Positions 6,206 through 39,908 of a DNA stretch of 40,506 nt are shown piece by piece; the first letter of the stretch is position 1, and every line of letters begins with the position of its first letter. The translations under genes and the position numbers were made by a program. Source of the DNA: Acidobacteriota bacterium (lineage in GTDB: Bacteria; Acidobacteriota; Terriglobia; 2-12-FULL-54-10). The stretch is from contig SHUM01000029.1 of assembly GCA_009691245.1 (NCBI GenBank), forward strand, positions 1 to 40,506, read 5' to 3'. The notes beneath the pieces were generated by a model. The model worked only from the letters and a program-made list of their open reading frames with translations, made no database searches and was not told where the DNA came from.

Positions 6206-6243
6206 CGAACTATCATTGACACTAAAAGGATCAGCGCATTTGC

Positions 6244-8094: not shown

Positions 8095-8104
8095 GAGTTC
8101 GGCA

Positions 8105-23421: not shown

Positions 23422-23558
23422 CTTTCACGGAATTTTCCAAATATGTCGCCTCCCGCTGATTTTTCCCTGCACCCTCCCCGCGAGACGCCCGGACTGGCCA
23501 CGGAATGGTCTGGACTGGTATGCTGGGTGGAAGTCATCCCAGTAATCGTGGAAGGTTC

Positions 23559-24434
23559 ATGTATAAGTCGGACCGAGCAAGGGCAAAGTACGGCATGGGT
23601 CTGGCGCTTGCCTTAGGTCTGGTAATTTGCGCGGGAGCTGTCGCCGGGCGCGGAGCATTCCAAATTTGGAGCCAGACCCCACCCTCTCCCGGGTCTCGAC
23701 AGGTGCCGCCTCCTTTGCTCCCTCCGGAAGATGAAACTCCCCTCGACATGACTACCGACGGTCCGACCACCGACTACGAATTTCTGTTCACCCGCCTGGC
23801 CCACTACTCGCCGGGATTCCAGTTGAGCAACGATGGCCAGGCCTGGCCCACCGACTACCCCAAAGCGGATCGCCAGTTTCTGCAAGGCCTCTTGCGCTAC
23901 ACCGCCATCGAAGGCCGCAAGCAGGAGCACGTCGTGCGGCCCACTGCGGATGAGCTGTACGACTTCCCCTTCGTCTATGCCGTCGAGGTTGGTTACATGC
24001 AGCTCTCTAACGACGAAGCCCAGCGCCTGCGCCAATATCTGCTGCGCGGCGGATTCATGATGGTCGACGACTTCCACGGCACCCGCGAGTGGGACAGTTT
24101 CGAAGCGCAGATGAAGAAGGTCTTCCCGGAATATGAGATCGAGGACATCAACGTCTCCGACCCCATCTTCCATTGCTTCTTCAATATCGAGGAGCTGTTC
24201 GAGCTGCCAGGCCTGCAATTTTTATATTCGGGACGCATCTTCGAGAAGGACGGCCGCGCGCCGCGCTACGCCGCCATCCGCGATGCCACCGGCCGCATCC
24301 TGGTGATGATCAACCACAACGTCGACATGGGCGATGCCTGGGAGTGGGCCGACCTGCCGCAATACCCCGAGCGCTACACCTCGCAAGCCTACCGCCTCGG
24401 TGTGAACTACATCGTCTACGCCCTCACCCACTGA
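23559..24434 (+). CDS. Exported DUF4159 protein
   Basis: The 291-residue protein begins with a signal peptide ('KYGMGLALALGLVICAGAVA') and a Pro-rich linker, followed by a DUF4159 domain from about residue 70 to the end. It shows 'DYEFLFTRLAHYS', 'DYPKADRQFLQGLLRYT', 'FVYAVEVGYMQLSNDEAQRL', 'YLLRGGFMMVDDFHGTREWD', 'SDPIFHCFFNI', 'RIFEKDGRAPRYAAIRD', 'ILVMINHNVDMGDAWEWAD' and 'YRLGVNYIVYALTH'. I recall DUF4159 as related to the amidotransferase-like fold and often coded beside MoxR/DUF58/vWA genes, as here. Its activity is unknown. The ATG at 23559, after GGAAGG, is preferred over one at 23505 because the signal peptide then starts normally. It opens the plus-strand cluster but is separated from the next gene by 590 bp. 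Confidence 0.85.
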   Translation: MYKSDRARAKYGMGLALALGLVICAGAVAGRGAFQIWSQTPPSPGSRQVPPPLLPPEDETPLDMTTDGPTTDYEFLFTRLAHYSPGFQLSNDGQAWPTDYPKADRQFLQGLLRYTAIEGRKQEHVVRPTADELYDFPFVYAVEVGYMQLSNDEAQRLRQYLLRGGFMMVDDFHGTREWDSFEAQMKKVFPEYEIEDINVSDPIFHCFFNIEELFELPGLQFLYSGRIFEKDGRAPRYAAIRDATGRILVMINHNVDMGDAWEWADLPQYPERYTSQAYRLGVNYIVYALTH

Positions 24435-25024: not shown

Positions 25025-27304
25025 ATGGGCGAGGCCATCTTCCGATTTCTGTTTAAATATCCGCCGATCGCCTTCGAGCGCGGGCGGGTGACGCTGGCCT
25101 CCGGCTGGCCCGTTTGGCTATTGATAATCCTCGCGCTGGGCGGCGCGGCGGCGCTGGGATATTTCCTGTGGCGGCAAAAGTCGCGGCTCCCGCTTACCAG
25201 CAAGCTGATGGTCTGGGGCGCGCAGTCGATTACGCTGGCGATTCTGCTGCTCCTGCTGTGGCGACCGGCTCTGGTGTTATCCTCATTAGTTCCGCAGCGC
25301 AACGTGCTGGCTGTGCTGGTGGATGACTCTTCCAGCATGGCGCTCACCGATGAAGGCACAATCCCGCGCGTCGAGCAGGTTCGCCAGACCTTTGCCGACG
25401 ATGGCGCGTTGCTCGCCGAACTGCGCGAAAAATTTCAGGTCCGCACATACTCCTTCTCCAATCAACCCCGCAAACTAATTACCGCCGCCGACTTGCAGGC
25501 ATCCGGCAAGTCCTCCCGCGTGGAAGAAGCCGTGGGACAGATTTATGGCGAGTTGCGCCACCTGCCGCTGGCGGGCGTCGTGGTGGTCTCCGACGGCGCG
25601 CAAAATGCCGGCAAGCCTTCGCCGGAAAATTTGCAGGAGATGCTGGCGCGCAAGATTCCTATCTACACGCTGGGCGTGGGTAATCCTCAGATGGAGCGCG
25701 ACATTGAAGTAACCGACATTGTGCTGCCGCGCACGGCGCTGCCCGGTTCTACGGTTACGGCTGCCGTTTCTCTGCGCCAGCATGGCTACATCGGGCGCGC
25801 AGCGAAGGTGGAATTGCGCGAAGGCAACCGCCTCTTGAAGAGCCGCACCGTGGAGTTCGGCCCCTCGCCCGTGGAGACGGTCAACATCAACTTCACGCCT
25901 GAGACCAAGGGCATACGCGAGTACACCGTGGTCGTTTCTCCCGCTGGCGGTCCCGAGCCGATCATGGAGAACAACGCGCAATCGCGCGTGGTGGAGGTCC
26001 AGGACCGCGTGGCTAAGATCCTCTATATAGAAGGTGAGCCGCGCTGGGAGTATAAGTTCCTGCGCCGCGCCATGGAGGAGGACAAGAGTTTCCAGATCGC
26101 CAGCGTGCTGCGTACTTCGCAGAACAAATTCTATCGTCAGGGAATCGAGAATCCCAAGGAACTGGCCACCGGCATTCCCAGCATGAAGGAACTGTTTCAA
26201 TATGACGGCTTAATACTGGGCAGCATTCAGGCATCATTCTTCTCGCCGGAGCAGCAGCGCAGCATCTACGAATTCGTCAGCAGGCGCGGCGGCGGACTCT
26301 TAATGCTGGGCGGACGCATGGCCTTCGCCGACGGCGGCTATCAAGCTTCCACGCTGGCCGACCTGCTGCCCGTGGAGCTGGACAATCGTGGAGCTACTTC
26401 GACGCTGCATCGCCTGCCAGCGAAGTTTCGCCTGACTGCGCGTGGCATGGAGAAAATTCAGATCAACACCGGCACGGCCAGCGATGATACAGCCTCGCAG
26501 CTTGCCTGGGACAAACTTCCGCAGCTAGCCAACTATCAGACCACAGGCAAGCCCAAGCCCGGCGCGGTGGTCCTGGGCGAAGGCGTGAACGAGGGCGGAG
26601 ATATAGTGCCGCTGCTGATCGCCGAGCATTTCGGGCGCGGTCGCACGGCGCTGTTTGCCACTGACAGTTCCTGGCGCTGGCAGATGCAGATGCCTTCGGA
26701 GGACCACTCGCACGAATTCTTCTGGCGGCAGTTACTGAGTTCCATGGTCACCGAAACGCCGCGCTTCGTCAGCGTTATGCCGGAGAAGCCGCTCTACGCC
26801 GATGAAGAAACGGTTCGCCTGGTGGGCCATGTCTATGACGAGCAGTTCGAGCCTGTCAATGCCGCCGAGGCGGTGGCCACGGTGAATTTCCCGGACGGCT
26901 CGAAGCAGGAAGTCCTCATGACTCATTCGGTGGAAGAGGATGGAGTCTTCTATGGCGAGATGAAAGCCGCGCCGGCGGGCATCTACAATGTGGAGTTAAG
27001 CGCTAAACTAGCGGACAAACAGATTGGAACCAGTTCGGCATATTTCCAGCGGGCCGACGGCGTGGTGGAACATTTCTCCCCGGAACTAAATGCGCCGTTT
27101 CTGTCGCGCATGGCCGAGCAGACCGGCGGAAAGTATTATCCGCTGGCGGAGGCTGGGAAGCTTCCCGAGCAGCTCACCTATTCGCCCGCCGGAGTGTCGG
27201 TGCCGGAAGTGCGCGATCTCTGGGACATGCCGTTGTGGCTCCTACTGATATTGATGGCGAAGGGCATTGAGTGGATGATGCGCAAGCGCTGGCGCACGGT
27301 GTAG
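25025..27304 (+). CDS. Membrane protein with vWA and amidotransferase-like domains
   Basis: The 759-residue protein has two N-terminal transmembrane helices (about 29-48 and 62-80), a vWA domain directly after ('VLAVLVDDSSSMALTDEG' with the MIDAS residues Asp100, Ser102, Ser104; 'LAGVVVVSDGAQNAG'; 'IPIYTLGVGNP'), and beta-sandwich-like segments. An amidotransferase-like fold region follows ('AKILYIEGEPRWEYKFLRRA', 'QYDGLILGSIQASFFSPEQQ', 'GGGLLMLGGRMAFADGGYQ', 'GRTALFATDSSWRWQM'). One helix lies close to the C-terminus ('MPLWLLLILMAKGIEWMM') with a basic tail. No catalytic Cys of glutaminase type is seen, so it is probably a binding or scaffolding protein with a periplasmic middle part. GAGGAG, 5 nt from the ATG, fixes the start. 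It belongs with the MoxR, DUF58 and BatA-like genes downstream. Confidence 0.85.
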   Translation: MGEAIFRFLFKYPPIAFERGRVTLASGWPVWLLIILALGGAAALGYFLWRQKSRLPLTSKLMVWGAQSITLAILLLLLWRPALVLSSLVPQRNVLAVLVDDSSSMALTDEGTIPRVEQVRQTFADDGALLAELREKFQVRTYSFSNQPRKLITAADLQASGKSSRVEEAVGQIYGELRHLPLAGVVVVSDGAQNAGKPSPENLQEMLARKIPIYTLGVGNPQMERDIEVTDIVLPRTALPGSTVTAAVSLRQHGYIGRAAKVELREGNRLLKSRTVEFGPSPVETVNINFTPETKGIREYTVVVSPAGGPEPIMENNAQSRVVEVQDRVAKILYIEGEPRWEYKFLRRAMEEDKSFQIASVLRTSQNKFYRQGIENPKELATGIPSMKELFQYDGLILGSIQASFFSPEQQRSIYEFVSRRGGGLLMLGGRMAFADGGYQASTLADLLPVELDNRGATSTLHRLPAKFRLTARGMEKIQINTGTASDDTASQLAWDKLPQLANYQTTGKPKPGAVVLGEGVNEGGDIVPLLIAEHFGRGRTALFATDSSWRWQMQMPSEDHSHEFFWRQLLSSMVTETPRFVSVMPEKPLYADEETVRLVGHVYDEQFEPVNAAEAVATVNFPDGSKQEVLMTHSVEEDGVFYGEMKAAPAGIYNVELSAKLADKQIGTSSAYFQRADGVVEHFSPELNAPFLSRMAEQTGGKYYPLAEAGKLPEQLTYSPAGVSVPEVRDLWDMPLWLLLILMAKGIEWMMRKRWRTV

Positions 27305-27333: not shown

Positions 27334-27423
27334 GTCGTCATTCCGAGCGCAGCGAGGAACCTGCTTTTGATCTTGGGGTGACGGCAGGAAAAGCAGGTTC
27401 CTCGCTGCGCTCGGAATGACGAC
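27334..27423. repeat. Palindromic element, copy 1 (perfect 35-bp arms)
   Basis: The arms at 27334-27368 and 27389-27423 are perfect inverted repeats of 35 bp around a 20-nt loop; the outer part reads GTCGTCATTCCGAGCGCAGC. It fills the gap between the vWA gene and the caspase-like gene and would form a very stable RNA hairpin. Two more copies lie at 28575 and 32662. The 'GTCATTCCGAGCG' type is a common intergenic palindrome or MITE-like sequence in diverse bacteria, from memory. Confidence 0.9.
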
Positions 27424-27465
27424 GTTTTAGGTTTTTTCCCAGTATTGGTTGAGGCATGTAAAACG

Positions 27466-28551
27466 ATGGCGTCAGCTTCAAGGCAGTTTAGACTTCAATG
27501 GCCGCTACGGATGTTTCCGGTGCTGGTGCTTTTCGCCATGGGCGCCGCTCAGACCGCCCGCGCGCAAGCGCCAACGGCTGCGTCCGACGCCGCCAACCCG
27601 CAGACCGTGGCGGTAATACTATCCGGCATTGGGGGTGACGCCGATTACGAAAAGATCATCGACGGCTGGGGCAAAGATCTCTACAGCACGCTCAGCGCGA
27701 GCGGGATGACCACCAGCCTCAGCGGAGTGAACAATGCCAATCTCTTCTGGCTGGCGGGCAAGAAGCAGGAAGGCGCCTACGCGGAATCGACCAAGGCGGA
27801 GATCACCAAGCTAATGGGCTCGCTCGCAGGGCGACTGCGTCAGCAAGATGTGCTGAGTCTGTATCTGATCGGGCATGGCAGCCACGACGACTACGACTAC
27901 CGGTTCAATCTGCCGGGACCCGATCTCACCTCCGGTGAAATTGCCGCGCTGCTTGCGCCCATCAAGGCCGAACGCCAGCTCGTTGTTAATATGACCTCCG
28001 CCAGCGGCGGTTCCATCCATGACCTGCGGCGCAAGGGCCGCGCGCTAATCTCCTCCACTACCGCCGGACAGGAGCGTAACTTCTCCGTCTTCGCACGCTA
28101 CTTCGTCGCCGGCGTGCAGGACGCCGCCGCCGATGCGGATAAGAACGAGGCCATCTCCGCCCTGGAGGCCTATCGCTACGCGATACGGGAAGTAACCCGC
28201 TACTATGAGGCTGCCAAGCGCATCGCCACCGAGCACGCCATTATTGAGGACAAGGGCGACACCGACGGAGTCCGCGAGCCGACCGCTGAAAATGGCCAGG
28301 GTCTTCTGGCCGCGGCCGTAACCGTGCGGCGGCTAGGCAAGGCGAGCGAAGCTCTGGAGACGCCGGAAATTCGTGCGATTCGCTCCAGGAAGCGCGGCAT
28401 CGAGGAGGCCATCGAGCAATTGAAATACACTAAGGCGTCGCTCGACACCAAGGAATATTTGAAGAAGCTGGAAGGCTTTCTGGTGGAGCTGGCGCGCACC
28501 CAGGCGGCGCTGGACAAATTGGAAGAAGCGGCCGGCGCGGGCGCTAAGTAA
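27466..28551 (+). CDS. Exported caspase/C13-like protein with Ser at the catalytic Cys position
   Basis: The 361-residue product has a signal peptide ('MFPVLVLFAMGAAQTARAQA') and then a caspase-hemoglobinase-like fold: 'TVAVILSGIGGDADYEKIID', 'LSLYLIGHGSHDDYDYRFNL' with the expected catalytic His (about residue 137), and 'ERQLVVNMTSASGGSIHDL', where the family's Cys before '(x)SGG' aligns with Ser178. 'ALISSTTAGQERN' and 'DADKNEAISALEAYRYAIRE' are the usual following strand and EF-like helix segment, then 'TEHAIIEDKGDTDG'. The last ~80 residues form a predicted coiled coil ('SRKRGIEEAIEQL...'). It may be a pseudoenzyme or a serine-type variant. I choose the ATG at 27466; a TTG at 27445 is possible. 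Palindromic repeats lie on both sides. Confidence 0.7.
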   Translation: MASASRQFRLQWPLRMFPVLVLFAMGAAQTARAQAPTAASDAANPQTVAVILSGIGGDADYEKIIDGWGKDLYSTLSASGMTTSLSGVNNANLFWLAGKKQEGAYAESTKAEITKLMGSLAGRLRQQDVLSLYLIGHGSHDDYDYRFNLPGPDLTSGEIAALLAPIKAERQLVVNMTSASGGSIHDLRRKGRALISSTTAGQERNFSVFARYFVAGVQDAAADADKNEAISALEAYRYAIREVTRYYEAAKRIATEHAIIEDKGDTDGVREPTAENGQGLLAAAVTVRRLGKASEALETPEIRAIRSRKRGIEEAIEQLKYTKASLDTKEYLKKLEGFLVELARTQAALDKLEEAAGAGAK

Positions 28552-28574: not shown

Positions 28575-28664
28575 GTCGTCATCGCGAGCGCCGCGAGGGA
28601 CCTGCTTTTGCGTTGGCGCGGTGACGGAGCAAAGCAGGTTCCTCGCTACGCTCGGAATGACGAC
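28575..28664. repeat. Palindromic element, copy 2 (imperfect)
   Basis: The left arm 28575-28609 and right arm about 28630-28664 match copy 1 with several changes (GCGAGCGCCGCGAGGGACC on the left, CTCGCTACGCTCGG on the right), so the stem has a few mismatches. It lies between the caspase-like and TPR-peptidase genes. Confidence 0.88.
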
Positions 28665-28720: not shown

Positions 28721-31492
28721 ATGTTGCGCAATGTAAGCAAACTTTGGCCTGGAATGTTCGCCACGATCGCCATCCTCTGCGTGTTGGCGATTCCCTGCCT
28801 CGCGCAGACTCCCCGCGTTCTAGTGAATCCTGCGCAGGGGACCACTCCCGCGCCTGCTGCCGCGACGCAGGCTGCCCCGCCCTCGACCCCGCTCGAAGCG
28901 GCGCGCCAGAACGTGGAAAAAGGCGAGTACAAAACCGCCATCGAGCAGCTCGAAGCATTGTTGGCGAAGAACACCAGTCCCACCGAGTCCATGCCGCTGC
29001 TGATGGAAGCGTGGCTGGCAACAGGCGAATATCGCAAAGCCTCCGAGCGCGGCGAGGAGTATCTAGCGCGCCGCGCCGAACCACCCGTGATGGTGGCGGT
29101 CGCCGAGGCCTGGTCGCGGGTGGGAGAATACGAGAAGGCCGAGCAGCGCGTGGCCAATCCCACTACCATCGGCGGACTTTGGATGCGCGGCAAGTTGGCC
29201 GCGCGGCGTGGCAAGTGGGACCAGTCCGACCGCGACTTTGAAGAGGTCGTCGCCCGCGCCGCCCGCAGCACCATTCCCAGCTCAGCCGACCAGCTTACGG
29301 TTGCCGACTCTCTGGTCGAGTTGAGTCGCTATCAGGACGCCAATGGAGTTTTTCAGGCGCTGGAAAAGGCGTTTCCCGAAAACGCCACAGTGAAGGCGCG
29401 CTGGGGCGAACTGATGTCGGCGAAGAATAATCCCTCCGCTGCCGGGGCATTGTTCGGCGAAGCGTTGCAGATCAACCCCAATCATCCCGTGGCGATGGTG
29501 GGCATGGGCGTGCAGATTGCCGATGCGTTCGGTAGCAAAGGCAGCGAGCTGATCGCCAAGCTGCTGGAAGTGAATCCGAATCTGGCCGAGGCGCGGCTGT
29601 TGGCGGCGCGCATGAAGTTGGAAGAGGAAAAATGGGAAGAGGCGTCAAAAGAACTGGACGAAGTGGACAAGGTAAACCCTCGTTCGCTCGAAAGCTGGGC
29701 GCTGCGCGCGGGGCTGGCCTTCCTTCAGGACAAGACCAGCGAAGTGGAGCAGACCTGGGTGCCGCGCATCCTGAAAGAAAATCCGCGCTACGGAGAAGTG
29801 TTCGAGTTGCTCGGCGATCTCGGCGTTACGCATCGCCTGTATGAGGAGTCGGTTGGCTACTATAAACGTGCGCTCGAAAAGAACGAGCGGCTCGACGCGG
29901 CGCGCTCGGCGTTGGGCATCAACCTGTTTCGCCTCGGCAAGGAAGAGGAGGCCAAACGCACTTTAGAGGCGGCCTACGAGCGCGACCGCTTCAACATCTG
30001 GACCGTGAACACGCTGCGGCTGATGGACAGTTACTCGCGCTTTGACTCGTTCGAGACGGACAAGTTTCGCGTCAGACTGCACCAGAAAGAGTCCGCTCTG
30101 CTGCGGCCATATGTGGAATCAATACTTAAAGAAAGTCTTGAAACAATAACAAAAAGATATAATTACACGCCGACTCAAAAAGTAGTGTTTGAGATGTTCC
30201 CGGACCATGAAGACTTCGCCGTGCGTACTCTCGGCATCCCCGGACTAGGCGCGCTAGGCGCGTCGTTTGGCCCGGTGGTGGCGATGGACGCACCTTCGGC
30301 GCGACCGACGGGAGAGTTCCACTGGGGCAGCACGCTATGGCATGAGCTGGCCCACGTCATCACGCTGGGCATCACCAAGAACCGCGTGCCGCGCTGGTTC
30401 ACCGAAGGCCTCTCGGTCTATGAAGAGGCGCACTCGAAGCTGGGCTGGGGCGATCCTCTGAGCCTTACGACATTCCATGCCTTGCAGAAATATGGCCTGG
30501 TGGCCATGAACGAACTGAACGGTGTGTTCGTCCGGCCCAAGTATCCCAATCAGGTCGTCTTCGCCTACTTCCAGTCGGGGCTGATCTGTGAATACATCAT
30601 CGACAAGCACGGTTTCGCCAAGATCAACGAAATGCTGCGGGCCTATGGCGAGGCCAAGACGGACGCGCAGGTATTCCAGGAAAAACTTGGCGTGAGCCTC
30701 GAAGAGTTCGACAAGCTCTTCAAGGAATATGCGCGGGAGAAAACCTACGACTTCGGCAAAGCAGTCGATTTCTCAAAGATGGAGGACCAGTCGATCGAGG
30801 CTCGCTTTGTCCATCCTCCAGGAACGGGCGGAGAGGGCGAAGAAGAGGGTGAGGAAGAAGAAGAGGGCGATCCGCAAGCCTTCGTGAAAGGTCTACTTGA
30901 AGAGGCGCAGGGTACTTCGCAGGACTTCATCGGCAAGCTGCGCACGGCTTCCCGGCTGCGCAAAGAGAAGAAGCTGAAGGAAGCGATCCAGATCGCCGAG
31001 GAAGCTAAGGCCATGCTGCCCCCTTACACAGAGGATGGCAACGCGTACGAGTTGCTGGCCGACATCTACATTGAGCAGGGCCAAAAAGAAAAGGCCGTGG
31101 CGGAGTTGCTGGAGTGGCGGCGCCATCGCGGACGCAATCCCGAGGCCTTCAGCAAGCTGGCCAATCTGCTGCACGAGCAAGGCCGTCGCAAGGAAGCCAT
31201 GCAGGTGGTGGAAGACTCGCTCCAGGTGGCCATGTACGATATTAAGTCGCATCAGAGTCTGGGCGACTGGAGTTTGGAAGAAGGCGACAATGCCACCGCG
31301 ATCCGCGCTTTTCAAGGCGTGCTGGCGCTGAATCCTCCCGACCAGGCCGCCGCGCACTACAAGCTTGCCACGGCATACATGAAATTATCGAAGACCGCCG
31401 AAGCCCGCGAGCAGGTGCTGGCCGCGCTGGAGATCGCGCCCGGGTATCGCCCGGCGCAAAAATTGCTTTTAGAATTGGCCGGAGCCGAGTAG
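28721..31492 (+). CDS. Exported TPR protein with HELAH metallopeptidase (MA-like) domain
   Basis: The 923-residue protein has a signal peptide ('MFATIAILCVLAIPCLAQ'), N-terminal TPR-like helices over about residues 55-440, then a gluzincin core. The zinc-binding helix is 'HELAH' (541-545) with Glu542 as general base, and 'PRWFTEGLSVYEE' supplies the third ligand Glu562. This fits the peptidase MA-like superfamily. An acidic linker ('GEGEEEGEEEEEGDPQ', near residue 705) leads into a second TPR block to the C-terminus. It is likely a periplasmic protease or protease-derived scaffold presenting TPR surfaces to partners. An AT-rich stretch at 30112-30192 marks the junction between TPRs and peptidase domain. 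Only weak ribosome signals precede the ATG. The neighbouring caspase-like and MoxR/vWA genes suggest a proteolytic part of an envelope machine. Confidence 0.82.
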   Translation: MLRNVSKLWPGMFATIAILCVLAIPCLAQTPRVLVNPAQGTTPAPAAATQAAPPSTPLEAARQNVEKGEYKTAIEQLEALLAKNTSPTESMPLLMEAWLATGEYRKASERGEEYLARRAEPPVMVAVAEAWSRVGEYEKAEQRVANPTTIGGLWMRGKLAARRGKWDQSDRDFEEVVARAARSTIPSSADQLTVADSLVELSRYQDANGVFQALEKAFPENATVKARWGELMSAKNNPSAAGALFGEALQINPNHPVAMVGMGVQIADAFGSKGSELIAKLLEVNPNLAEARLLAARMKLEEEKWEEASKELDEVDKVNPRSLESWALRAGLAFLQDKTSEVEQTWVPRILKENPRYGEVFELLGDLGVTHRLYEESVGYYKRALEKNERLDAARSALGINLFRLGKEEEAKRTLEAAYERDRFNIWTVNTLRLMDSYSRFDSFETDKFRVRLHQKESALLRPYVESILKESLETITKRYNYTPTQKVVFEMFPDHEDFAVRTLGIPGLGALGASFGPVVAMDAPSARPTGEFHWGSTLWHELAHVITLGITKNRVPRWFTEGLSVYEEAHSKLGWGDPLSLTTFHALQKYGLVAMNELNGVFVRPKYPNQVVFAYFQSGLICEYIIDKHGFAKINEMLRAYGEAKTDAQVFQEKLGVSLEEFDKLFKEYAREKTYDFGKAVDFSKMEDQSIEARFVHPPGTGGEGEEEGEEEEEGDPQAFVKGLLEEAQGTSQDFIGKLRTASRLRKEKKLKEAIQIAEEAKAMLPPYTEDGNAYELLADIYIEQGQKEKAVAELLEWRRHRGRNPEAFSKLANLLHEQGRRKEAMQVVEDSLQVAMYDIKSHQSLGDWSLEEGDNATAIRAFQGVLALNPPDQAAAHYKLATAYMKLSKTAEAREQVLAALEIAPGYRPAQKLLLELAGAE

Positions 31493-31579: not shown

Positions 31580-32614
31580 ATGTCGCTGACGAGCACACCA
31601 CAGATCACCGAAAGCAATGTACGCGAGCACCTCGCACGGTTGCACGAATACCGCACGTCAATCACCAAACAGATTCGCAAGATGGTCATCGGCCAGGACG
31701 AGGCCGTGCACCAGGTTCTGGTCGTCCTGCTGGTCGGCGGACACACGCTGATCACCGGCCTGCCCGGTCTGGCCAAGACGCTGCTGGTGAAGTCCGTGGC
31801 CTCCGCGCTGGGCCTGATGTTCAAGCGCATTCAGTTCACTCCCGACCTGATGCCTGCCGACATCACCGGCACCGACATCATTGAAGAAGACATGGCCACG
31901 GGGCACCGCGTCTGGAAGTTTGTCCCCGGCCCCATCTTCACGCAGGTGCTGCTGGCGGACGAGATCAATCGCACGCCGCCCAAGACGCAGTCGGCGCTGC
32001 TCGAAGCCATGCAGGAGTACAGCGTTACAGTGCTGGGCAAGACCTATAATCTCGACAGGCCCTTCCTGGTGCTGGCGACGCAGAACCCCATCGAGCTGGA
32101 AGGCACCTACTCGCTGCCCGAAGCGCAGCTCGACCGCTTCATGTTCAACATTGTGATTGGCTATTTGAGCGAGCAGGAGGAAGTGGACGTGGTCAACGCC
32201 ACCACCTCCGGCTTGGCAGTGGAGATTGAGCCGATGACCAACGCCGAAGAGGTCCGCCTCTTTCAGGCGTTAATCCGCAAAGTACCGGTGGCCGACAGCG
32301 TCGCGCGCTACGCCGTGCAGTTGTCGCGCGCCACGCGACCCACGGACCCCTCCTCGCCCGACTTTGTGAAGAAGTATGTGAACTATGGAGTGAGCGTGCG
32401 CGCCGCGCAATATATGACGCTGGCCGGCAAGGCCTCCGCGGTGCTCGATGGCCGCTTCAACGTTTCCGTCGAGGATATCCAGCGGCTGGCCGCGCCCATT
32501 CTGCGCCACCGCATCCTGACTAATTTCCACGCCGAGTCCGACGGCATCACCACCGACGAGCTGGTGCGCCGCCTGATCGAGGCAGTGCCCGTGCCGAAAT
32601 CAGGCTTGTCGTAA
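31580..32614 (+). CDS. MoxR-family AAA+ ATPase
   Basis: The 344-residue cytoplasmic protein has Walker A 'GLPGLAKT' (60-67), 'IQFTPDLMPADITGTDIIEE', Walker B 'VLLADEINRTPPKTQSALLE' with Asp127-Glu128, sensor 1 'VLATQNPIELEGTYSLPEAQ' and 'LDRFMF', the full MoxR set. MoxR ATPases act as chaperones that, with vWA-domain proteins, help insert metals or assemble protein complexes. Three vWA proteins are coded in this cluster, with DUF58 and BatA-like genes directly after it, the classical arrangement. GAGAGG/GGACGG upstream provides the ribosome site. Confidence 0.93.
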   Translation: MSLTSTPQITESNVREHLARLHEYRTSITKQIRKMVIGQDEAVHQVLVVLLVGGHTLITGLPGLAKTLLVKSVASALGLMFKRIQFTPDLMPADITGTDIIEEDMATGHRVWKFVPGPIFTQVLLADEINRTPPKTQSALLEAMQEYSVTVLGKTYNLDRPFLVLATQNPIELEGTYSLPEAQLDRFMFNIVIGYLSEQEEVDVVNATTSGLAVEIEPMTNAEEVRLFQALIRKVPVADSVARYAVQLSRATRPTDPSSPDFVKKYVNYGVSVRAAQYMTLAGKASAVLDGRFNVSVEDIQRLAAPILRHRILTNFHAESDGITTDELVRRLIEAVPVPKSGLS

Positions 32615-32661: not shown

Positions 32662-32746
32662 GTCGTCATTCCGAGCACAGCGAGGAACCTGCTGTTCTAT
32701 CGTGCGCTGTGAACAGCAGGTTCCTCGCTGCGCTCGGAATGACAAC
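32662..32746. repeat. Palindromic element, copy 3
   Basis: The left arm 32662-32697 and the right arm 32711-32746 match copies 1 and 2, with compensating changes next to the loop (CTGCTGTTC / GAACAGCAG), so the stem is kept while the inner sequence differs. The loop has 13 nt. It lies between the MoxR and DUF58 genes. Confidence 0.88.
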
Positions 32747-32810: not shown

Positions 32811-33818
32811 ATGAGCTTCCTGGGCAATCTACAATCAAACGTTGAGCAGGCCGCGCGCAAGGCCGGGTTTGGAGGGCCTGCGGGCGGCTCCACCACCGGG
32901 CCGACGCGCTTCCTTGATCCGCGCATACTGGGCCGCATCTCCGATCTGCAACTGGTCGCGCGCAGCGTGGTCGAGGGCTTCCTCACCGGACTGCACCGCT
33001 CGCCCTTCACCGGCGTCTCCATTGAGTTCGCCGAGTACCGCCTGTACACGCCCGGCGACGATCCGCGCTCCATCGACTGGAACGTCTTTGCTCGCAGCGA
33101 CCGCCACTATCAGAAGAAGTATCACGGCGAGACCAATACCGAGCTGACCATCCTGCTGGACGTCAGCGCGTCGATGGGCTTCGGCGGCAACTACAAAAAT
33201 GTGAATGGGGCGGAGGACGCGCCGGCCATCAGCAAGTATGAGTACGGATGTTATCTCGCCGCCTCGCTCGCCTACTTTGCCAGCCAGCAGCGCGACGCCA
33301 CCGGGCTGATTCTGTTTGACTCGGAGATTCGCGAGCGCATCCCCGCGCGCATGAGGCGCGGTCAGCTTCCGCGCATCCTGCACGCGCTGGACAATGCCAA
33401 GCCGGGCCAGACGACTAATCTGGCGGGAGCGCTCGACAAGCTGGCTGGCATGTTGCACCGCCGGGGCGTGATCGTGCTGATCTCGGACTTCTACGAACAG
33501 CCGGAAAAGATCTCCGACTCGTTGCAACGTCTGCGCTTCGGCGGCAACGACTTGATCCTGTTCCATCTGATGGACCCGCTCGAACTGGAATTTAATTTGG
33601 ACGAGCCGGTGCTGCTGGAAGACCTCGAGACGGGCGACCGCATGGAAGTGAATCCAGAGTACGCCGGGCCGCAGTATCGCAAGCTGATTGAGGAACACAT
33701 CGGGCGCATTGGCCAGGATGCACGGTCCGCGCGCATTGACTATGAGCTGGTGCCCACGTCGCGCCCGCTTGACTATGCGCTGTTCCACTACCTGTCCGCG
33801 CGACAGCGCCGAGGCTGA
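32811..33818 (+). CDS. DUF58 protein with vWA-type MIDAS motif
   Basis: The 335-residue protein has the DUF58 core 'YRLYTPGDDPRSIDWNVFAR' (76-95), 'HGETNTELTILLDVSASMGF' with DxSxS at Asp117, Ser119 and Ser121, and 'RRGVIVLISDFYEQPEKISD'. DUF58 proteins are the usual direct partners of MoxR ATPases and resemble vWA domains that bind a divalent metal through the MIDAS. No membrane helix is visible, so it probably acts in the cytoplasm next to the membrane. GAGG 5 nt before the ATG supports the start. The next gene follows after a perfect palindrome. Confidence 0.92.
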   Translation: MSFLGNLQSNVEQAARKAGFGGPAGGSTTGPTRFLDPRILGRISDLQLVARSVVEGFLTGLHRSPFTGVSIEFAEYRLYTPGDDPRSIDWNVFARSDRHYQKKYHGETNTELTILLDVSASMGFGGNYKNVNGAEDAPAISKYEYGCYLAASLAYFASQQRDATGLILFDSEIRERIPARMRRGQLPRILHALDNAKPGQTTNLAGALDKLAGMLHRRGVIVLISDFYEQPEKISDSLQRLRFGGNDLILFHLMDPLELEFNLDEPVLLEDLETGDRMEVNPEYAGPQYRKLIEEHIGRIGQDARSARIDYELVPTSRPLDYALFHYLSARQRRG

Positions 33819-33927: not shown

Positions 33928-36027
33928 ATGCAATTTCTTTCGCCATGGTTTTTGCTGGGAGCCTTTGCGGTGGCCGTGCCCATCTGGGTGCATCTCATCC
34001 GCAGTGAAGAGGCGCAGCGCATTGCCTTCAGCTCGCTGATGTTTCTGCGCAAGGTGCCCTTGAAATCCGCCTCGCGGCAGAAGCTGAAGCACTTGGCATT
34101 GCTGGCGGCGCGAACCGCTTTGCTGGTCCTGCTGGCGCTGGCTTTCGCGCGACCATTTTTTCCGGGAGGCGCGCCGTCGCTGCTGACCGGTTCCGGCAGC
34201 CGGCATCGCGTCATCTTACTCGATACTTCCTTAAGTATGCAGATCGGCGACCGCTGGCAGCGCGCCACGCAGGCCGCTGGCGAAGTGATTGACGATGTCA
34301 GTGAGAACGACGTCGGCCAGATCGTTACGTTTTCCTCCGACTTTGAAATTCAAAATCTTCCCTCCGCCGACCGCGCCGCGTTGCGCGCCACGCTCGCGGG
34401 ATTGCAACCCACCGCTGGAACCACCTCTTACGAACATGCCTTCCGCGCCATTGAGCGCATTCAGGAAGACTCCGGCCGCGCGCTGGCCGTAACTTTTATT
34501 TCCGATCTGCAGAAGTCCGGCGCGGGTGGCAACGCGCAAGGGTTGTCCGTGCCTCCCGTCGCTGAGTTCAAGGTAGTCGATGTGGGCTCGGCGGCCACGC
34601 CGAACTTTGCGGTCTCGGACGTGCGCGTGCGCCCGCTGGTCTTTGGCGGTCGCTACCCGGAGCGCTTGGTGGCACAAGTGCGGGGCTTCGGCACCGAGGT
34701 CGCGACGCGGGACTTCACCCTTTCCGTCACGGGAAAAGTCATCCAGCGCAAAACGGTTACGGTGCCGGCCTCTGGAATGGCGCTGGTCAGCTTCGATCCA
34801 TTCGATGTCCCGCAGGGAATCAATCGCGGCGAAGTGCGTGCCGTAACCGCCGACGAGCTGCCCGCCGACGATGTCTTCCAGTTTTCTCTGGAGCGCCGCG
34901 AGCCGTTTCGAGTCCTCTTCCTGCGCAACACGGGCGATGAAGGCGAGTTGTTCTATTTTCGCAACGCGTTGGCCGCCGAGGCCAATTCGCCGTGGCAGTT
35001 GGAAGTGCGCACTCCGGGCGACGACACCACGCATCCGCTGAATCAATACGCGCTGGTAATTCTTAGCAACGTGCCGCGCATTCCCAACGAATTGGCTGAT
35101 GGCCTGCGCGCGCTGGTGCAACGCGGCGGCGGGATCATAATCACCGCGGGCAATCGCTTCCCCGCTCCGGAGCTGGAGCAGCAGCTCGCCGCCTTCTGGC
35201 CGGCGCACGCCACGCAGAAGCGCCTGCTCACACGCGACGCCGAGCGCCTGATCCTGCTCGGCGAGTACGAGCGCAGCCACGCCATCTTCCGCGATCTGGA
35301 AGACGCCGGTGGCGAATCATTGCGCGCCGTGCAAGCCTACGGGTATCTAAGCCTTCAGACCGATGGGAGTCCAGAGTCGAAAGTATTGATGCGCTTTGCC
35401 AATGCCGATCCGGCGCTGGTCGAGCGGCAATACATGGGCGGGCGTGTGCTGCTGCTGGCCACCGCGCTCGACAATATCTGGAATGACTTTCCGCTGCATC
35501 CCGTGTTCATTCCCTTCGTGCATCAGATGATGCGCTACGCCGGAGGCTATCCCTCCGACCCGCCGGCCTATCGAATTCCCAGCACGCTGTCGCTGCAAAA
35601 CTTTGCTCGCGCCGGGCAAGCCGGGCAGGCCTGGGACGCAATTGGTCCGGACGGCAAGCGCGTAGTCGCCTTTGCTCAGGAGAACCGCGCCGACTTCCTG
35701 CTGCTGCGTCAACCGGGATTCTACGAGATCACGCAACGCGCCGAGAAGCATCTGATCGCGGCCAATATTGACCCGTCGGAGTCCGATCTGCAACCGCTGC
35801 CGGAAGAAGACCGCAAACTGCTCGCTCCTGCAACCGACACGCAAGGTCCCGCCGCTGTAACCGGCGCCCCGGAATCTGAGAAAAAGCAGTCGTTTTGGTG
35901 GATACTAATGGTAATGGCGCTGGCGGCAGCGCTGATCGAAATGGTTTTGGCGTTTCCGTTCCTGACCAAGCAGCGAGTGCTGGCGAATGTTGAATCCCAG
36001 CCCGCGATGGAAGGCGAGGAAATCTAA
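33928..36027 (+). CDS. BatA-like membrane protein with vWA domain
   Basis: The 699-residue protein starts with the aerotolerance-regulator N-terminal domain: a helix 'PWFLLGAFAVAVPIWVHLI', 'IAFSSLMFLRKVP' and a second helix 'LALLAARTALLVLLALAFAR' (56-75). A vWA domain follows ('HRVILLDTSLSMQIGDRWQR' with Asp99, Ser101, Ser103; 'ALAVTFISDLQKSG'), then beta-rich periplasmic regions, an amidotransferase-fold-like part ('QYALVILSNVPRIPNELADG', 'LVQRGGGIIITAGNRFPAPE') and one C-terminal helix ('FWWILMVMALAAALIEMVLA'). It resembles the 759-residue vWA protein upstream in plan. It is likely an assembly partner of MoxR and DUF58 in the inner membrane. Its TAA overlaps the next ATG by one base, so translation is coupled. 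Confidence 0.9.
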   Translation: MQFLSPWFLLGAFAVAVPIWVHLIRSEEAQRIAFSSLMFLRKVPLKSASRQKLKHLALLAARTALLVLLALAFARPFFPGGAPSLLTGSGSRHRVILLDTSLSMQIGDRWQRATQAAGEVIDDVSENDVGQIVTFSSDFEIQNLPSADRAALRATLAGLQPTAGTTSYEHAFRAIERIQEDSGRALAVTFISDLQKSGAGGNAQGLSVPPVAEFKVVDVGSAATPNFAVSDVRVRPLVFGGRYPERLVAQVRGFGTEVATRDFTLSVTGKVIQRKTVTVPASGMALVSFDPFDVPQGINRGEVRAVTADELPADDVFQFSLERREPFRVLFLRNTGDEGELFYFRNALAAEANSPWQLEVRTPGDDTTHPLNQYALVILSNVPRIPNELADGLRALVQRGGGIIITAGNRFPAPELEQQLAAFWPAHATQKRLLTRDAERLILLGEYERSHAIFRDLEDAGGESLRAVQAYGYLSLQTDGSPESKVLMRFANADPALVERQYMGGRVLLLATALDNIWNDFPLHPVFIPFVHQMMRYAGGYPSDPPAYRIPSTLSLQNFARAGQAGQAWDAIGPDGKRVVAFAQENRADFLLLRQPGFYEITQRAEKHLIAANIDPSESDLQPLPEEDRKLLAPATDTQGPAAVTGAPESEKKQSFWWILMVMALAAALIEMVLAFPFLTKQRVLANVESQPAMEGEEI

Positions 36028-39000
36028 TGCAGACTTTCCAGTCGTTTTCAAAACCGCCGGAGCGATCCAGGCAAACGGGTGGGCACCCCAACGAGCAGAT
36101 CGCCGGTTACCTCGGCGATGTGCGGCGTCGCCTGCAATGGCAGACGGCGGCGCAGGGCCTGGGTGTCTGCGGCGTGGTGGCCCTCGTTGCCACCGTCGGT
36201 ACCGTTCTGGCCGTGAATCACTGGCGTTTTTCGGAGTCGGCAGTCACGATGGGATCCATTTTCCTGTGGACCGCGCTGCTCGCCGCCGGCGCCTACTTTC
36301 TGGTGCGTCCGCTGCTGCAGCGCATCACCGACGCGCGTATTGCCCGCTTCGTCGAGGAGAAGCATCCCGAGTTCAAGGATCAGTTGGTAACCGCTGTCGA
36401 ATTGCAGCAAAACGCCGCGACCAATGCCTCATCACAGATTTTCCAAAGCATCCTTGCGGAAGAAGCGATGCGCAAAACGCCGACTGCTCCGCCCAACTCG
36501 CTGGTCGATCCCAAACGCATCTGGAAGCCGCTGACTTGGGGCCTGGGCTCGGTAGCCATCATTTTATTTCTAGGATTATTTGGGCCGGGCGTGTTTCGCT
36601 ATGGGACCAAGACGCTCTGGATCGGCTGGGCACAGGCCAAGAACAATCCGCTGTATCTGATTAACCTGACTCCCGGCGACGTTACCGTCGGTCGCGACGC
36701 GGATCAGGAAATTCTGGCCACCGCCGAGGGCTTCCTGCCCGCCGACATGAAGTTGCACGTGCTCTACGGCAAAAATGCCGCTTGGGAAGAAGCCTCCATG
36801 CTGCCCGGCGACAAGGGCGCGGGATTCCATTTTTTGTTGATGAACATTCAGGAGCCGATCCAGTATTACGTTGAGTCCAACGGCGTGCGCACCGCGCAGC
36901 ACACCATCTCGGTGATCGCCGTGCCGCGCGTAGATCGCCTGGAAGTGAAGTTTCACTATCCGCCCTACGCCGGCATGGAGGACGTTACCGAGCAGGCTGG
37001 CGGCGACATCATCGCGCTGAAGGGCACGGAGATCACACTCACCGTCCACACCGACACGCCCGCGCCCGGCGGAAGGCTGGTGCTGGATGACAACTCCGCC
37101 ATTGAATTGAAGAAGACGGGCGAGAAACAATTGCAGGCCGTCTTCAAGCTATCCAAGGACGCTCTCTATCACGTGCGTCTGCAAGACCCGCAGAGCCGCG
37201 AAGCGCGGGCCAGCGAAGAATATCTGATGCAGGCCGTCAACGACATGGCGCCCACGGTGCGCCTGGTCCGTCCTGGCAAGGATCTGAAGCCGACTCCGGT
37301 CGAGGAAGTCATTATTAACTTCGAGGCGCAGGACGACGTGAGGCTCTCTAACCTCGACCTGCAATACATCGTGAACGGCAAAGAAAAGAAGACCGTCGCG
37401 CTAGTGAAGAATGGAAAGACGCAGCAGGTAACTGAATCTCACCTGATCGCGCTGGAGAATTATACGCTGCAACCCGGCGACCTGATCTCCTACTATGCCG
37501 AAGCGAAAGACGCCGCCGGAAACGCCACCCCGACGGATATGTTCTTCCTGCAGGTGCGTCCCTTTGAGCGCAACTACACGCAAAGCCAGCAGGGCGGCGG
37601 TGGTGGCGGTGGAGGCGGCGGGCAGGAAGATAGTTTCCTTTCCGAGCGCCAGAAAGAAGTGATCTCCGCCACGTGGAATGTGCTGCGCGGCAAAGACAAG
37701 CAGCGCGCCGACCAACTAGCCGAGGCCGCTGAAGTCCTCTCGACCGTGCAGCAGACCGTGAAGGAGCAAGCCGAGACTTTGCAAACACGCATCGGGCGGC
37801 GCGAGCTTACCGGTGTCAACCAGGAATTCAACGCGCTGGCGGAAAACCTCAAGAAAGCGGTCGAGTCCATGGACCCGGCCATTGCGATGCTCAAGGGGAA
37901 GAAGTTTGAGGATGCGCTCACGCCGGAACAAACCGCGCTCCAGTATTTGCTGCGCGCCGAGGCCACTTATCGCGACATTCAAGTTGCCTTCGGACAGCAG
38001 GGCGGTGGCGGTGGCGGCGGCGCCAGCGCGGGCCGCGACCTGAGCGACCTGTTCCAGTTGGAACTCGACACCGACAAGAATCAGTACGAGACGCTACAGC
38101 AAATGGCCGCAGGAGGCGCGGGCGGAGCCATGCCCGGTCAGGAGATGGACGAGATCATGCGCAAGCTGCAGGAGCTTGCCCGCCGTCAACAGGAGATCGC
38201 GCGCCGCGAGCAGGAGAATCAGAAGGACTCGATGCGCTCGGCCAATCGCTGGGAGCAGGAGATGCTGCGCCGCGAGACGGAGGAGCTGGCGCGAAAGCTG
38301 GAGCAGCTCTCGCGTCAGTCGAACTCTTCGCAGATGCAGCAGGCTAGTCGCTCACTCTCGCAGGCCGCGCGCGACATGCAGCAGGCCGGACAACAAGGTC
38401 AGCCAGGCGGACAATCGGGCCAGGGCGGGCAGCAGCAGAATAGTCAGAATCAGCAGAACCAGCAGAGTCGAGGCCAGCAAGGTCAGCAGCAGAGCCAACA
38501 ATCTGGTCAGCAGGGCGATCAGCAGAACGCGCGCAATCAGCAGGGCGGCGAACGGGGCGGCAGCGAACGCGAGCGAGCGCTGGAGCGTCTGCGCGAGGCG
38601 AGCAACGCGCTGGCTGGACAGCGTAGCAGCATGGAGGGTCAGCGCCTGAGCGAAATGTCCAATCGCGCCAAGGATATCGCCAACCTCCAGCAAGGGATCG
38701 CTGAAGAGACGCGGCGCATGGCCGCCCGTGGCGAGAATCGCTCGCCGGGGCCGGAGGAGCGGCAGGCGCTGTCGGAGACCATCAACGATAAGATTCAACT
38801 GCTGGAGCAATTGCGGCAACTGGAGCGTGACATCAACGCCGCCGCCGGCCGCATGGCTGGCAGTCAGCGCGAGACGTCCGAGCAACTTCGTGGAGCGTCT
38901 TCGCACATGCAGGAAGAGCGGCTCAGCGACAAAATTCGGCAGGGCGCGTATCTCTCTCAACGCGGATTGTGGCCAGCGGCTGCGCCGGTGGAAGATGAGT

Positions 39001-39908
39001 TGAGCGGGAATCTGGATGAATTAGCGCGCCGTCTCGATGGCGCGCAGCGCGCCACGCAGCAGGACGGCGCGAGCGAAGGCGACAAGCTGGCGCGTGCGCT
39101 GGAAACGGCGGAGCGCGTTCGCCAGGGTCTCGAAGCAATGGGCGGTCAACCTCCCGGGGAGCGGCCCGGACAGGGTGGCCAGCAACCCGGCCAACAGGGG
39201 CAGGGTCAACAGCCCGGTCAACAATCCGGACAACAGCAGGGCCAGCGCGGCGGAAATCAAAATGGTAATCAACCCGGCAACCAAGGCCAGCAACCAGGCC
39301 AACAAGGTCAGGGCCAACAACCGGGCCAGTCCGGCCAACAGGGACAAGGGCAAGGCCAGGGCCAGGGACAGGGACAGGGGGGCAGTCAGGGTAGTCAGGG
39401 TGGCAATGGCCAAATGAGTGATGGTCAGGGTCAGATGTCTGGCCAGCGTAACCCCGGTCAGATAGGCGGCGGTCGAGGCGATGGTCGCGCGGGATCCTTC
39501 GCGGGCGGAAATGTTGGCGAGTCCTACAATCCCGGCGGGTTTTATCCGGGCCAGTATACTCCCGAGCAGATGCGGCAGATGGATCGTCAATTCGGCGAGC
39601 TTTCGCGCGAGGCCGGCGAGCTGCGCGAACTGATGGGTAATGATACGGAGTTTGGCAAAATGGTGATGGACCTGATCCGCTCCATGCAGAATCTGGACGC
39701 GGGCAACTTCCCTGGCGATCCGGCGGAGCTGGACCGTCTACGCAGCGAGTTGACCGATAAATGGAAGGAACTGGAGCTGCGCCTGCGCCGCGAAATGCAG
39801 ATGGGGGAGCCCGAAGCGGTACGGCTTAGCGGGCAGGAGCGGGTGCCGGAAAAGTATCGCTCACTGGTTGAAGAGTATTACCGCTCACTATCTCGCAAGA
39901 AGCAGTAA
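36027..39908 (+). CDS. Large membrane-anchored DUF4175-type protein with Gln/Gly-rich regions
   Basis: The 1293-residue protein has two helices near the N-terminus (about 45-63 and 75-95), a third at about 172-190, and beta-rich domains to about residue 510 ('FHYPPYAGMEDVTEQAGGDI', 'DMAPTVRLVRPGKDLKP'). Long coiled-coil segments follow, interrupted by a Gly run (about 521-530) and Gln/Ser/Gly-rich low-complexity blocks near residues 787-845 and 1045-1150. The C-terminal part is charged ('ELRLRREMQMGEPEAVRLSG'). This is the plan of DUF4175 proteins found after BatA genes. Most of it should lie in the periplasm, where it could span or brace the envelope. The low-complexity DNA is a minisatellite, so length may vary between strains. 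Start and stop of the BatA-like gene overlap (TAATG). Confidence 0.82.
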   Translation: MQTFQSFSKPPERSRQTGGHPNEQIAGYLGDVRRRLQWQTAAQGLGVCGVVALVATVGTVLAVNHWRFSESAVTMGSIFLWTALLAAGAYFLVRPLLQRITDARIARFVEEKHPEFKDQLVTAVELQQNAATNASSQIFQSILAEEAMRKTPTAPPNSLVDPKRIWKPLTWGLGSVAIILFLGLFGPGVFRYGTKTLWIGWAQAKNNPLYLINLTPGDVTVGRDADQEILATAEGFLPADMKLHVLYGKNAAWEEASMLPGDKGAGFHFLLMNIQEPIQYYVESNGVRTAQHTISVIAVPRVDRLEVKFHYPPYAGMEDVTEQAGGDIIALKGTEITLTVHTDTPAPGGRLVLDDNSAIELKKTGEKQLQAVFKLSKDALYHVRLQDPQSREARASEEYLMQAVNDMAPTVRLVRPGKDLKPTPVEEVIINFEAQDDVRLSNLDLQYIVNGKEKKTVALVKNGKTQQVTESHLIALENYTLQPGDLISYYAEAKDAAGNATPTDMFFLQVRPFERNYTQSQQGGGGGGGGGGQEDSFLSERQKEVISATWNVLRGKDKQRADQLAEAAEVLSTVQQTVKEQAETLQTRIGRRELTGVNQEFNALAENLKKAVESMDPAIAMLKGKKFEDALTPEQTALQYLLRAEATYRDIQVAFGQQGGGGGGGASAGRDLSDLFQLELDTDKNQYETLQQMAAGGAGGAMPGQEMDEIMRKLQELARRQQEIARREQENQKDSMRSANRWEQEMLRRETEELARKLEQLSRQSNSSQMQQASRSLSQAARDMQQAGQQGQPGGQSGQGGQQQNSQNQQNQQSRGQQGQQQSQQSGQQGDQQNARNQQGGERGGSERERALERLREASNALAGQRSSMEGQRLSEMSNRAKDIANLQQGIAEETRRMAARGENRSPGPEERQALSETINDKIQLLEQLRQLERDINAAAGRMAGSQRETSEQLRGASSHMQEERLSDKIRQGAYLSQRGLWPAAAPVEDELSGNLDELARRLDGAQRATQQDGASEGDKLARALETAERVRQGLEAMGGQPPGERPGQGGQQPGQQGQGQQPGQQSGQQQGQRGGNQNGNQPGNQGQQPGQQGQGQQPGQSGQQGQGQGQGQGQGQGGSQGSQGGNGQMSDGQGQMSGQRNPGQIGGGRGDGRAGSFAGGNVGESYNPGGFYPGQYTPEQMRQMDRQFGELSREAGELRELMGNDTEFGKMVMDLIRSMQNLDAGNFPGDPAELDRLRSELTDKWKELELRLRREMQMGEPEAVRLSGQERVPEKYRSLVEEYYRSLSRKKQ
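39160..39460 (+). repeat. Coding minisatellite (CAGGGCCAACAACCGGG-type)
   Basis: Imperfect short units built from CAACCCGGCCAACAGGGGCA-like and CAGGGCCAGGGACAGGG-like words encode 'QQPGQQGQG', 'GNQPGNQ' and a run of Gly-Gln pairs inside the DUF4175-type gene. An earlier, less regular Gln-rich block lies at about 38385-38560. All units keep the frame. Confidence 0.75.

Follow-up and report, generated by a model that had tools for sequence, protein, structure and literature searches.

A caspase-fold protein with serine at the nucleophile position in a MoxR-DUF58-BatA operon of Acidobacteriota, probably an exported pseudopeptidase

The window, i.e., the whole stretch of 40,506 nucleotides analysed here, is one contig of a 3.43 Mb genome, and the closest to it among named relatives are Candidatus Solibacter/Bryobacterales MAGs (Acidobacteriota). 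Its genes run in the order DUF4159, VWA + GATase1-like, pseudo-caspase, TPR + Peptidase_MA, MoxR, DUF58, BatA and DUF4175-like, the gene under study being encoded with MoxR, DUF58 and BatA/VWA genes and thereby a member of a MoxR/Bat-type operon. The features are listed below; neighbour counts over 117 loci are lower bounds because contig ends truncate many of the loci, and residue counts refer to 118 aligned family members (rows).

23505..24434, + strand: DUF4159 protein (E 2.3e-48; in 76/117 loci)
25025..27304, + strand: VWA + GATase1-like protein, immediately upstream (in 109/117 loci)
27466..28551, + strand: CDS of the caspase/legumain-fold protein, probable pseudopeptidase (ATG start, stop at 28551)
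27466..27564, + strand: probable signal peptide (hydrophobic stretch ending ARA-QA, by eye)
27874..27876, + strand: His of LIGHGS, H144 (invariant, 118/118)
27997..27999, + strand: Ser at the catalytic-Cys position, S185 (S94, E8, T4, N4, A3, G3, P2 in 118 rows)
28003..28005, + strand: Ser of the SGG motif, S187 (S114, A4; equivalent to the C-x-S-G Ser of Cys-type relatives)
28132..28167, + strand: EF-hand-like loop D-A-D-K-N-E-A-I-S-A-L-E, residues 230-241 (pattern in 118/118)
28363..28545, + strand: C-terminal helical hairpin / coiled coil, predicted (AF2 model)
28721..31492, + strand: TPR protein with Peptidase_MA (HExxH...E), adjacent downstream (in 72/117 loci)
31580..32614, + strand: MoxR AAA+ ATPase (AAA_3, E 3.1e-60; in 77/117 loci)
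32811..33818, + strand: DUF58 protein (in 89/117 loci)
33928..36027, + strand: BatA/VWA membrane protein (in 94/117 loci)
36027..39908, + strand: DUF4175-like large protein (match below the Pfam cut-off; in 71/117 loci)

Residues are numbered from a TTG at 27445, which together with an ATG at 27511 is an alternative in-frame start; numbers counted from the ATG at 27466 are lower by 7, so that S185 and H144 correspond to Ser178 and H137, respectively. From N to C terminus, the protein has a probable signal peptide, a caspase-like domain and a helical hairpin. A first-pass annotation made from the sequence had called it exported and had noted a terminal coiled coil, and both descriptions hold: besides the hydrophobic stretch with its cleavage-like site, a hydrophobic 12-mer lies near the N terminus in 104 of the 113 relatives with enough upstream residues, and AF2 models a helical hairpin at about residues 307-367, with no fewer than 45 further residues beyond the domain in 118/118 rows. 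The protein is presumably periplasmic. The two motifs on which that annotation relied, an intact LIGHGS and a TSASGGS in place of the nucleophile motif, are likewise present, the latter as VVNMTSASGGS.

In Pfam, the window protein matches Peptidase_C13 best (PF01650; E 7.7e-4), at 19.5 bits and thus below the 22.8 cut-off. C13 was matched by 35/64 aligned family members at E <=0.1 (best 5.7e-10), and no match over the curated PF01650 cut-off was found in 61 genomes of relatives. Peptidase_C14 (PF00656) weakly matched 4/64 members (best E 2.9e-4), the window protein not among them, while for the window protein NCBIfam yielded no match above cut-off and phmmer against PDB sequences one chance match only. 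Structure prediction, which the first-pass annotation had proposed as a check, placed H144 (model residue 100) directly after strand b3 (92-99) and S185 (model residue 141) directly after strand b4 (133-140). The AF2 model was computed from a three-row alignment (window, L001, L002) and has a mean pLDDT of 58.7, with values of ~62-90 by block across most of the first ~140 residues and low confidence at model residues 160-260; a single-sequence model had a mean pLDDT of 45. The three-row model matched plant legumain (5obt_A; Foldseek E 6.4e-5; Z 14.9, rmsd 2.7, 155 residues), GPI8 (8imx_K, Z 13.8) and metacaspase-4 (Z 12.4) in the PDB. As modelled, the fold is that of caspases and haemoglobinases with legumain as the nearest solved structure, an assignment that is confident only in the first half of the model.

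The family profile also reached Arabidopsis metacaspase-4 (6w8r_A) by sequence (E 6e-6), and in that alignment S185 falls on the residue before HSGG; in the alignment to a Pseudomonas aeruginosa plasmid 'peptidase C13', it falls on the Cys of VSACYSGG. Since the two profile alignments and the AF2 placement agree, the original assignment of Ser178 to the Cys position is right. Among the non-family matches, 17 loci and L155 were inspected, and 13 of these relatives align over the motif: 12 have Cys there, nine of them in the exact S185 column, and in L192, L196 and L201 the Cys was put one column off by the aligner. The thirteenth, an acidobacterial caspase-like protein outside the family (L188, 911-2008), has Pro at the nucleophile column and is a possible independent pseudo-caspase.

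With the window protein as query, matches were obtained in 6/7 genomes of its order and in 114/396 sampled Acidobacteriota genomes, and the family profile search extended this to 127/396. The family is delimited by a clear gap in E-values, nearly all members lying below 1e-57 (two split genes, whose second pieces lie above it, being the exception) and the weak caspase-like matches between 1e-16 and 1e-5. Outside the phylum, Gemmatirosa kalamazoonensis (Gemmatimonadota) has one more member on its megaplasmid, and the operon around it is the same (VWA-GATase, pseudo-caspase, TPR-peptidase, DUF4159, MoxR, DUF58, BatA). That member (L154, 6223-8738) is split over the overlapping ORFs 6223-8139 and 7860-8738 and, lying in two overlapping frames, possibly contains a frameshift or an error in the sequence. 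Scans of viral contigs and phage records found no family member. The 118 rows consist of the window, L001, L002 and 115 of 116 further stretches, and 64 of the 118 make up alignment A1; a locus with only a coiled-coil fragment (L153) and the second fragment of L130 were dropped, and 14 genomes, mostly close kin of included ones, were left out of the count (G319, G287, G276, G166, G132, G316, G174, G114, G095, G123, G304, G113, G219 and G110).

Cys occurs at the S185 column in 0/118 aligned members, so the homologues with Cys that would have spoken against the first-pass assignment were not encountered. That annotation had also proposed checking whether homologues conserve the Ser, and the idea of a conserved nucleophile was rejected: Ser is found in 94/118 rows, or a hydroxyl residue (Ser/Thr) in 98, and Glu, Asn, Ala, Gly or Pro takes its place in the remaining 20. 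When a maximum-likelihood tree was computed with this column removed, it required at least nine switches between a hydroxyl and a non-hydroxyl state, with at least six of them forced by well-supported branches. Most of the Ser losses (14/31 rows) sit in a subfamily including L077, L087, L102, L103, L105, L116 and L119-L129, where F/Y/A/S/M-P mostly stands for the GG after the motif Ser and the gene order is often DUF58-BatA-DUF4175-VWA-pseudo-caspase. A Cys shifted to the next residue was considered as well and rejected, given that Cys is found at residue 186 in only 10/118 rows; it stands there directly before SG, one residue nearer to SG than the Cys of the Cys-type relatives.

H144, by comparison with S185, is invariant in all 118 rows, including the 20/20 without a hydroxyl residue, and ranks 2nd among 249 columns by entropy, S185 ranking 55th (six top-ranked columns are a window-only insertion with spuriously high rank and are to be ignored). 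G143, G158, D160, D230, E241 and E263 are also invariant, D269 is kept in 117 rows and S187 in 114; in the 20 rows without Ser/Thr, H144, G158, D160, D230, E241 and S187 are each present 20/20. The loop D-x-[DN]-x-[NDS]-x-x-x-[ST]-x-x-E, found in 118/118 rows, has a spacing that we take to be that of an EF-hand loop, with Pfam EF-hand_5 weakly matching 5/64 members, and judged from this sequence pattern it may bind Ca2+. A similar acidic loop occurs in most Cys-type relatives alignable at that region, so that it was inherited and then kept after the loss of the Cys.

Because the nucleophile position is dispensable (20/118 rows, at least nine changes), the family reads as a phylum-scale pseudopeptidase rather than a serine hydrolase. 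The first-pass annotation had left the choice between an inactive binding protein and a serine-type hydrolase on a caspase fold; the repeated loss of the hydroxyl with an unchanged core supports the former and disfavours the latter. We nevertheless weighed a working serine-type hydrolase with a His/Ser dyad, at least in the Ser clades, the Glu, Ala and Gly members then being secondary losses. Ser/Thr in 98/118 rows and the invariant His would fit such an enzyme, as would the most similar solved folds, which are mostly active enzymes, and the window's own well-supported clade has Ser in 16/16 rows and the larger group holding it a hydroxyl residue in 30/31. The 16/16 leaves room for activity in that clade, and an invariant His is equally expected of an enzyme, both of which stand against the pseudopeptidase reading. 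The nucleophile, however, changed at least nine times without change at His, at GPD or at the acidic loop, and by entropy the Ser comes only 55th among 249 columns. Natural Cys-to-Ser homologues are also reported as inactive, both on the same fold (Trypanosoma brucei metacaspase 4, TbMCA4; PMC6657590) and on the papain fold (SERA5; PMC4671257). A serine hydrolase is thus unlikely. Somewhat less likely still is its narrower form, in which the domain would truly act as a serine-type hydrolase or acyl-transferase in the window's clade, a catalytic class not known in clan CD, and would be coupled to a chaperone system of the MoxR-VWA type, the other lineages having since lost the activity.

Catalysis could alternatively reside in other residues, either as a hydrolase or ligand-binding enzyme acting through S187 or with a metal held at H144, D160, D230, E241, E263 and D269, all of which are conserved in 114/118 to 118/118 rows. 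Most Cys-type relatives, however, have the Ser equivalent to S187 as well (in C-x-S-G), and D230-E241 matches the acidic loop of those relatives, so that the conservation is explained by inheritance of fold and loop. The AF2 model, moreover, places S187 past the nucleophile site; we give this enzyme little credence.

Among the neighbours, the TPR-peptidase carries an apparently intact gluzincin metallopeptidase motif (HELAH...E) in the window and HExxH..E in 70/74 relatives, from which it follows that the catalytic loss is specific to the caspase-like protein and no general decay of the operon. The VWA-GATase1-like protein (25025-27304) is possibly a second dead enzyme of the operon. The GGGLLMLGG segment of its GATase-like domain, presumably the nucleophile elbow, has no Cys in the window, and a nearby Cys occurs in 1/111 rows; going by these sequences, this domain is probably non-catalytic too. 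Its gene is absent in 8/117 loci, two of which begin at a contig end (L055, L152), and in the remaining six the TPR-peptidase stands in its place.

The explanation we regard as probable is that of an exported pseudopeptidase serving as a Ca2+-stabilised, peptide- or partner-binding subunit of a MoxR-DUF58-BatA envelope system. It builds on the computational observations of fold, Ser position, absence of Cys, repeated nucleophile loss, invariance of His and acidic loop, and operon linkage. Its pseudopeptidase part is well supported, and the partner and the role of Ca2+ are put forward as suggestions. Given that relatives often carry residues unable to cut at the Cys site, the protein most likely serves a cell-envelope machine by binding or as a scaffold, and not as an enzyme. 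In this scheme, the catalytic Cys of a legumain-like domain would have been lost at or before the base of the family, with Ser now the usual, but not necessary, occupant of its position. Ca2+ in the EF-hand-like loop may stabilise the domain, and the pocket of His and Gly-Asp, together with the C-terminal helical hairpin, would bind a peptide or a partner, the latter most likely being the VWA-GATase-like membrane protein encoded just upstream. Within the MoxR-DUF58-BatA (Bat-type) envelope system, the protein would then be a subunit with a structural or sensing role, beside the still-intact metallopeptidase.

That metallopeptidase might itself be the real partner, with the pseudo-caspase presenting substrates to it. 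The TPR-Peptidase_MA gene is adjacent downstream, its protein keeps the active-site motif, and it is found in 72/117 loci, which would suit such a role; however, it was not seen in the other 45/117 (some cut by contig ends), while the VWA-GATase gene is missing from only 8/117. We see this partnership as having a small but real chance of being correct. The pseudo-caspase could also act on an active caspase-like peptidase of its own cell as a dominant-negative regulator, in the manner of cFLIP or TbMCA4, a mode of action often reported for pseudo-caspases (PMC6426788). Searches of the genome to which the window belongs, however, gave no match to C14, C13, CHAT or C11 peptidases at E 1e-3 (in the C25 search the controls were silent), which argues against a dominant-negative role; the regulator hypothesis was rejected on these grounds and is left with a very low probability. 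A defence system was rejected as well, PADLOC giving 0 matches for seven operon proteins.

In comparison to known systems, the family shares with C13 peptidases (legumain, GPI8; PF01650) the fold, the His motif, the motif spacing and the best Pfam match. It differs in that the catalytic Cys after b4 is absent in 118/118 rows, in its sub-threshold score, and in being bacterial, exported and operon-bound with an extra C-terminal helical hairpin. With the pseudo-orthocaspases (bacterial p20, C14) it has in common a bacterial caspase fold and a broken dyad, the Cys being replaced in 118/118 rows here. According to PMC6426788 and PMC3501461, Ser is a common Cys replacement in these proteins, which are mostly Tyr-Ser and are found in Alphaproteobacteria and Cyanobacteria; Acidobacteria are unmentioned in the main text of PMC6426788. 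In the present family, by contrast, the His is always kept, the affinity is to C13 and not C14, and the linkage to a MoxR-VWA operon is near-constant. TbMCA4 offers a caspase fold with Cys replaced by Ser that is reported as inactive but functional (PMC6657590), and differs as a eukaryotic C14 metacaspase and a single protein versus a phylum-wide family. The MoxR-VWA ternary conflict systems likewise combine a MoxR ATPase and a VWA protein with a caspase-like domain, which in them takes the effector position, is reported as inactive in ~70% of cases and has been proposed to bind peptides or to be dominant-negative (PMC7159879). In those systems the VWA protein carries the caspase-like domain as a fusion, and the third component is VMAP, iSTAND or FtsH, whereas the pseudo-caspase is exported as a protein of its own and encoded in a Bat-type operon that includes DUF58 and BatA; neither DUF58 nor 'Acidobacter' is mentioned in the main text of that paper. 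Finally, the Bat (Bacteroides aerotolerance) operon has the same clustering of MoxR, DUF58, a BatA-type VWA membrane protein and a TPR protein, to which the window operon adds DUF4159, the VWA-GATase-like protein and the pseudo-caspase. What the Bat proteins do is itself described as unsettled (PMC3557215).

The first-pass view that either reading would be unusual was overstated for the inactive one. Pseudo-caspases are a known kind in bacteria (PMC6426788, PMC3501461) and in TbMCA4 (PMC6657590), including Ser-for-Cys pseudo-metacaspases and pseudo-orthocaspases, with SERA5 as a papain-fold analogue (PMC4671257), and inactive caspase domains in MoxR-VWA systems have been reported (PMC7159879). 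The present family is distinct from the known pseudo-caspases in its C13 affinity, export, constant His, phylum-wide occurrence and operon. In the open-licence literature searched, no paper describing the family or the operon was found, and this exported, operon-locked pseudo-caspase family appears to be undescribed. The 118 aligned sequences form a large natural series in which the nucleophile drifts and the His and acidic loop stay; the family is therefore well suited to testing which features a pseudo-protease retains, and for what reason. For the MoxR-VWA (Bat-type) system, whose biochemical function is unsettled, the pseudo-caspase is a constant and testable partner, and the identity of its own binding partner would inform on the role of the envelope machine.

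Two further observations concern the surroundings of the operon. A fusion of type I 3-dehydroquinase and shikimate dehydrogenase (21700-23310, - strand) adjoins it in the window, as also in L139, L141 and L142. In addition, palindromic repeats with 35-nt arms and a ~20-nt loop, perfect to near-perfect, lie on both sides of the pseudo-caspase gene (27334-27423 and 28575-28664) and again further downstream (32662-32746). A 26-base half-site pattern gave 100 matches in the genome (50 per strand, <=3 mismatches) and 0 for the reversed control, and the repeats look like a REP/BIME-type interspersed element.
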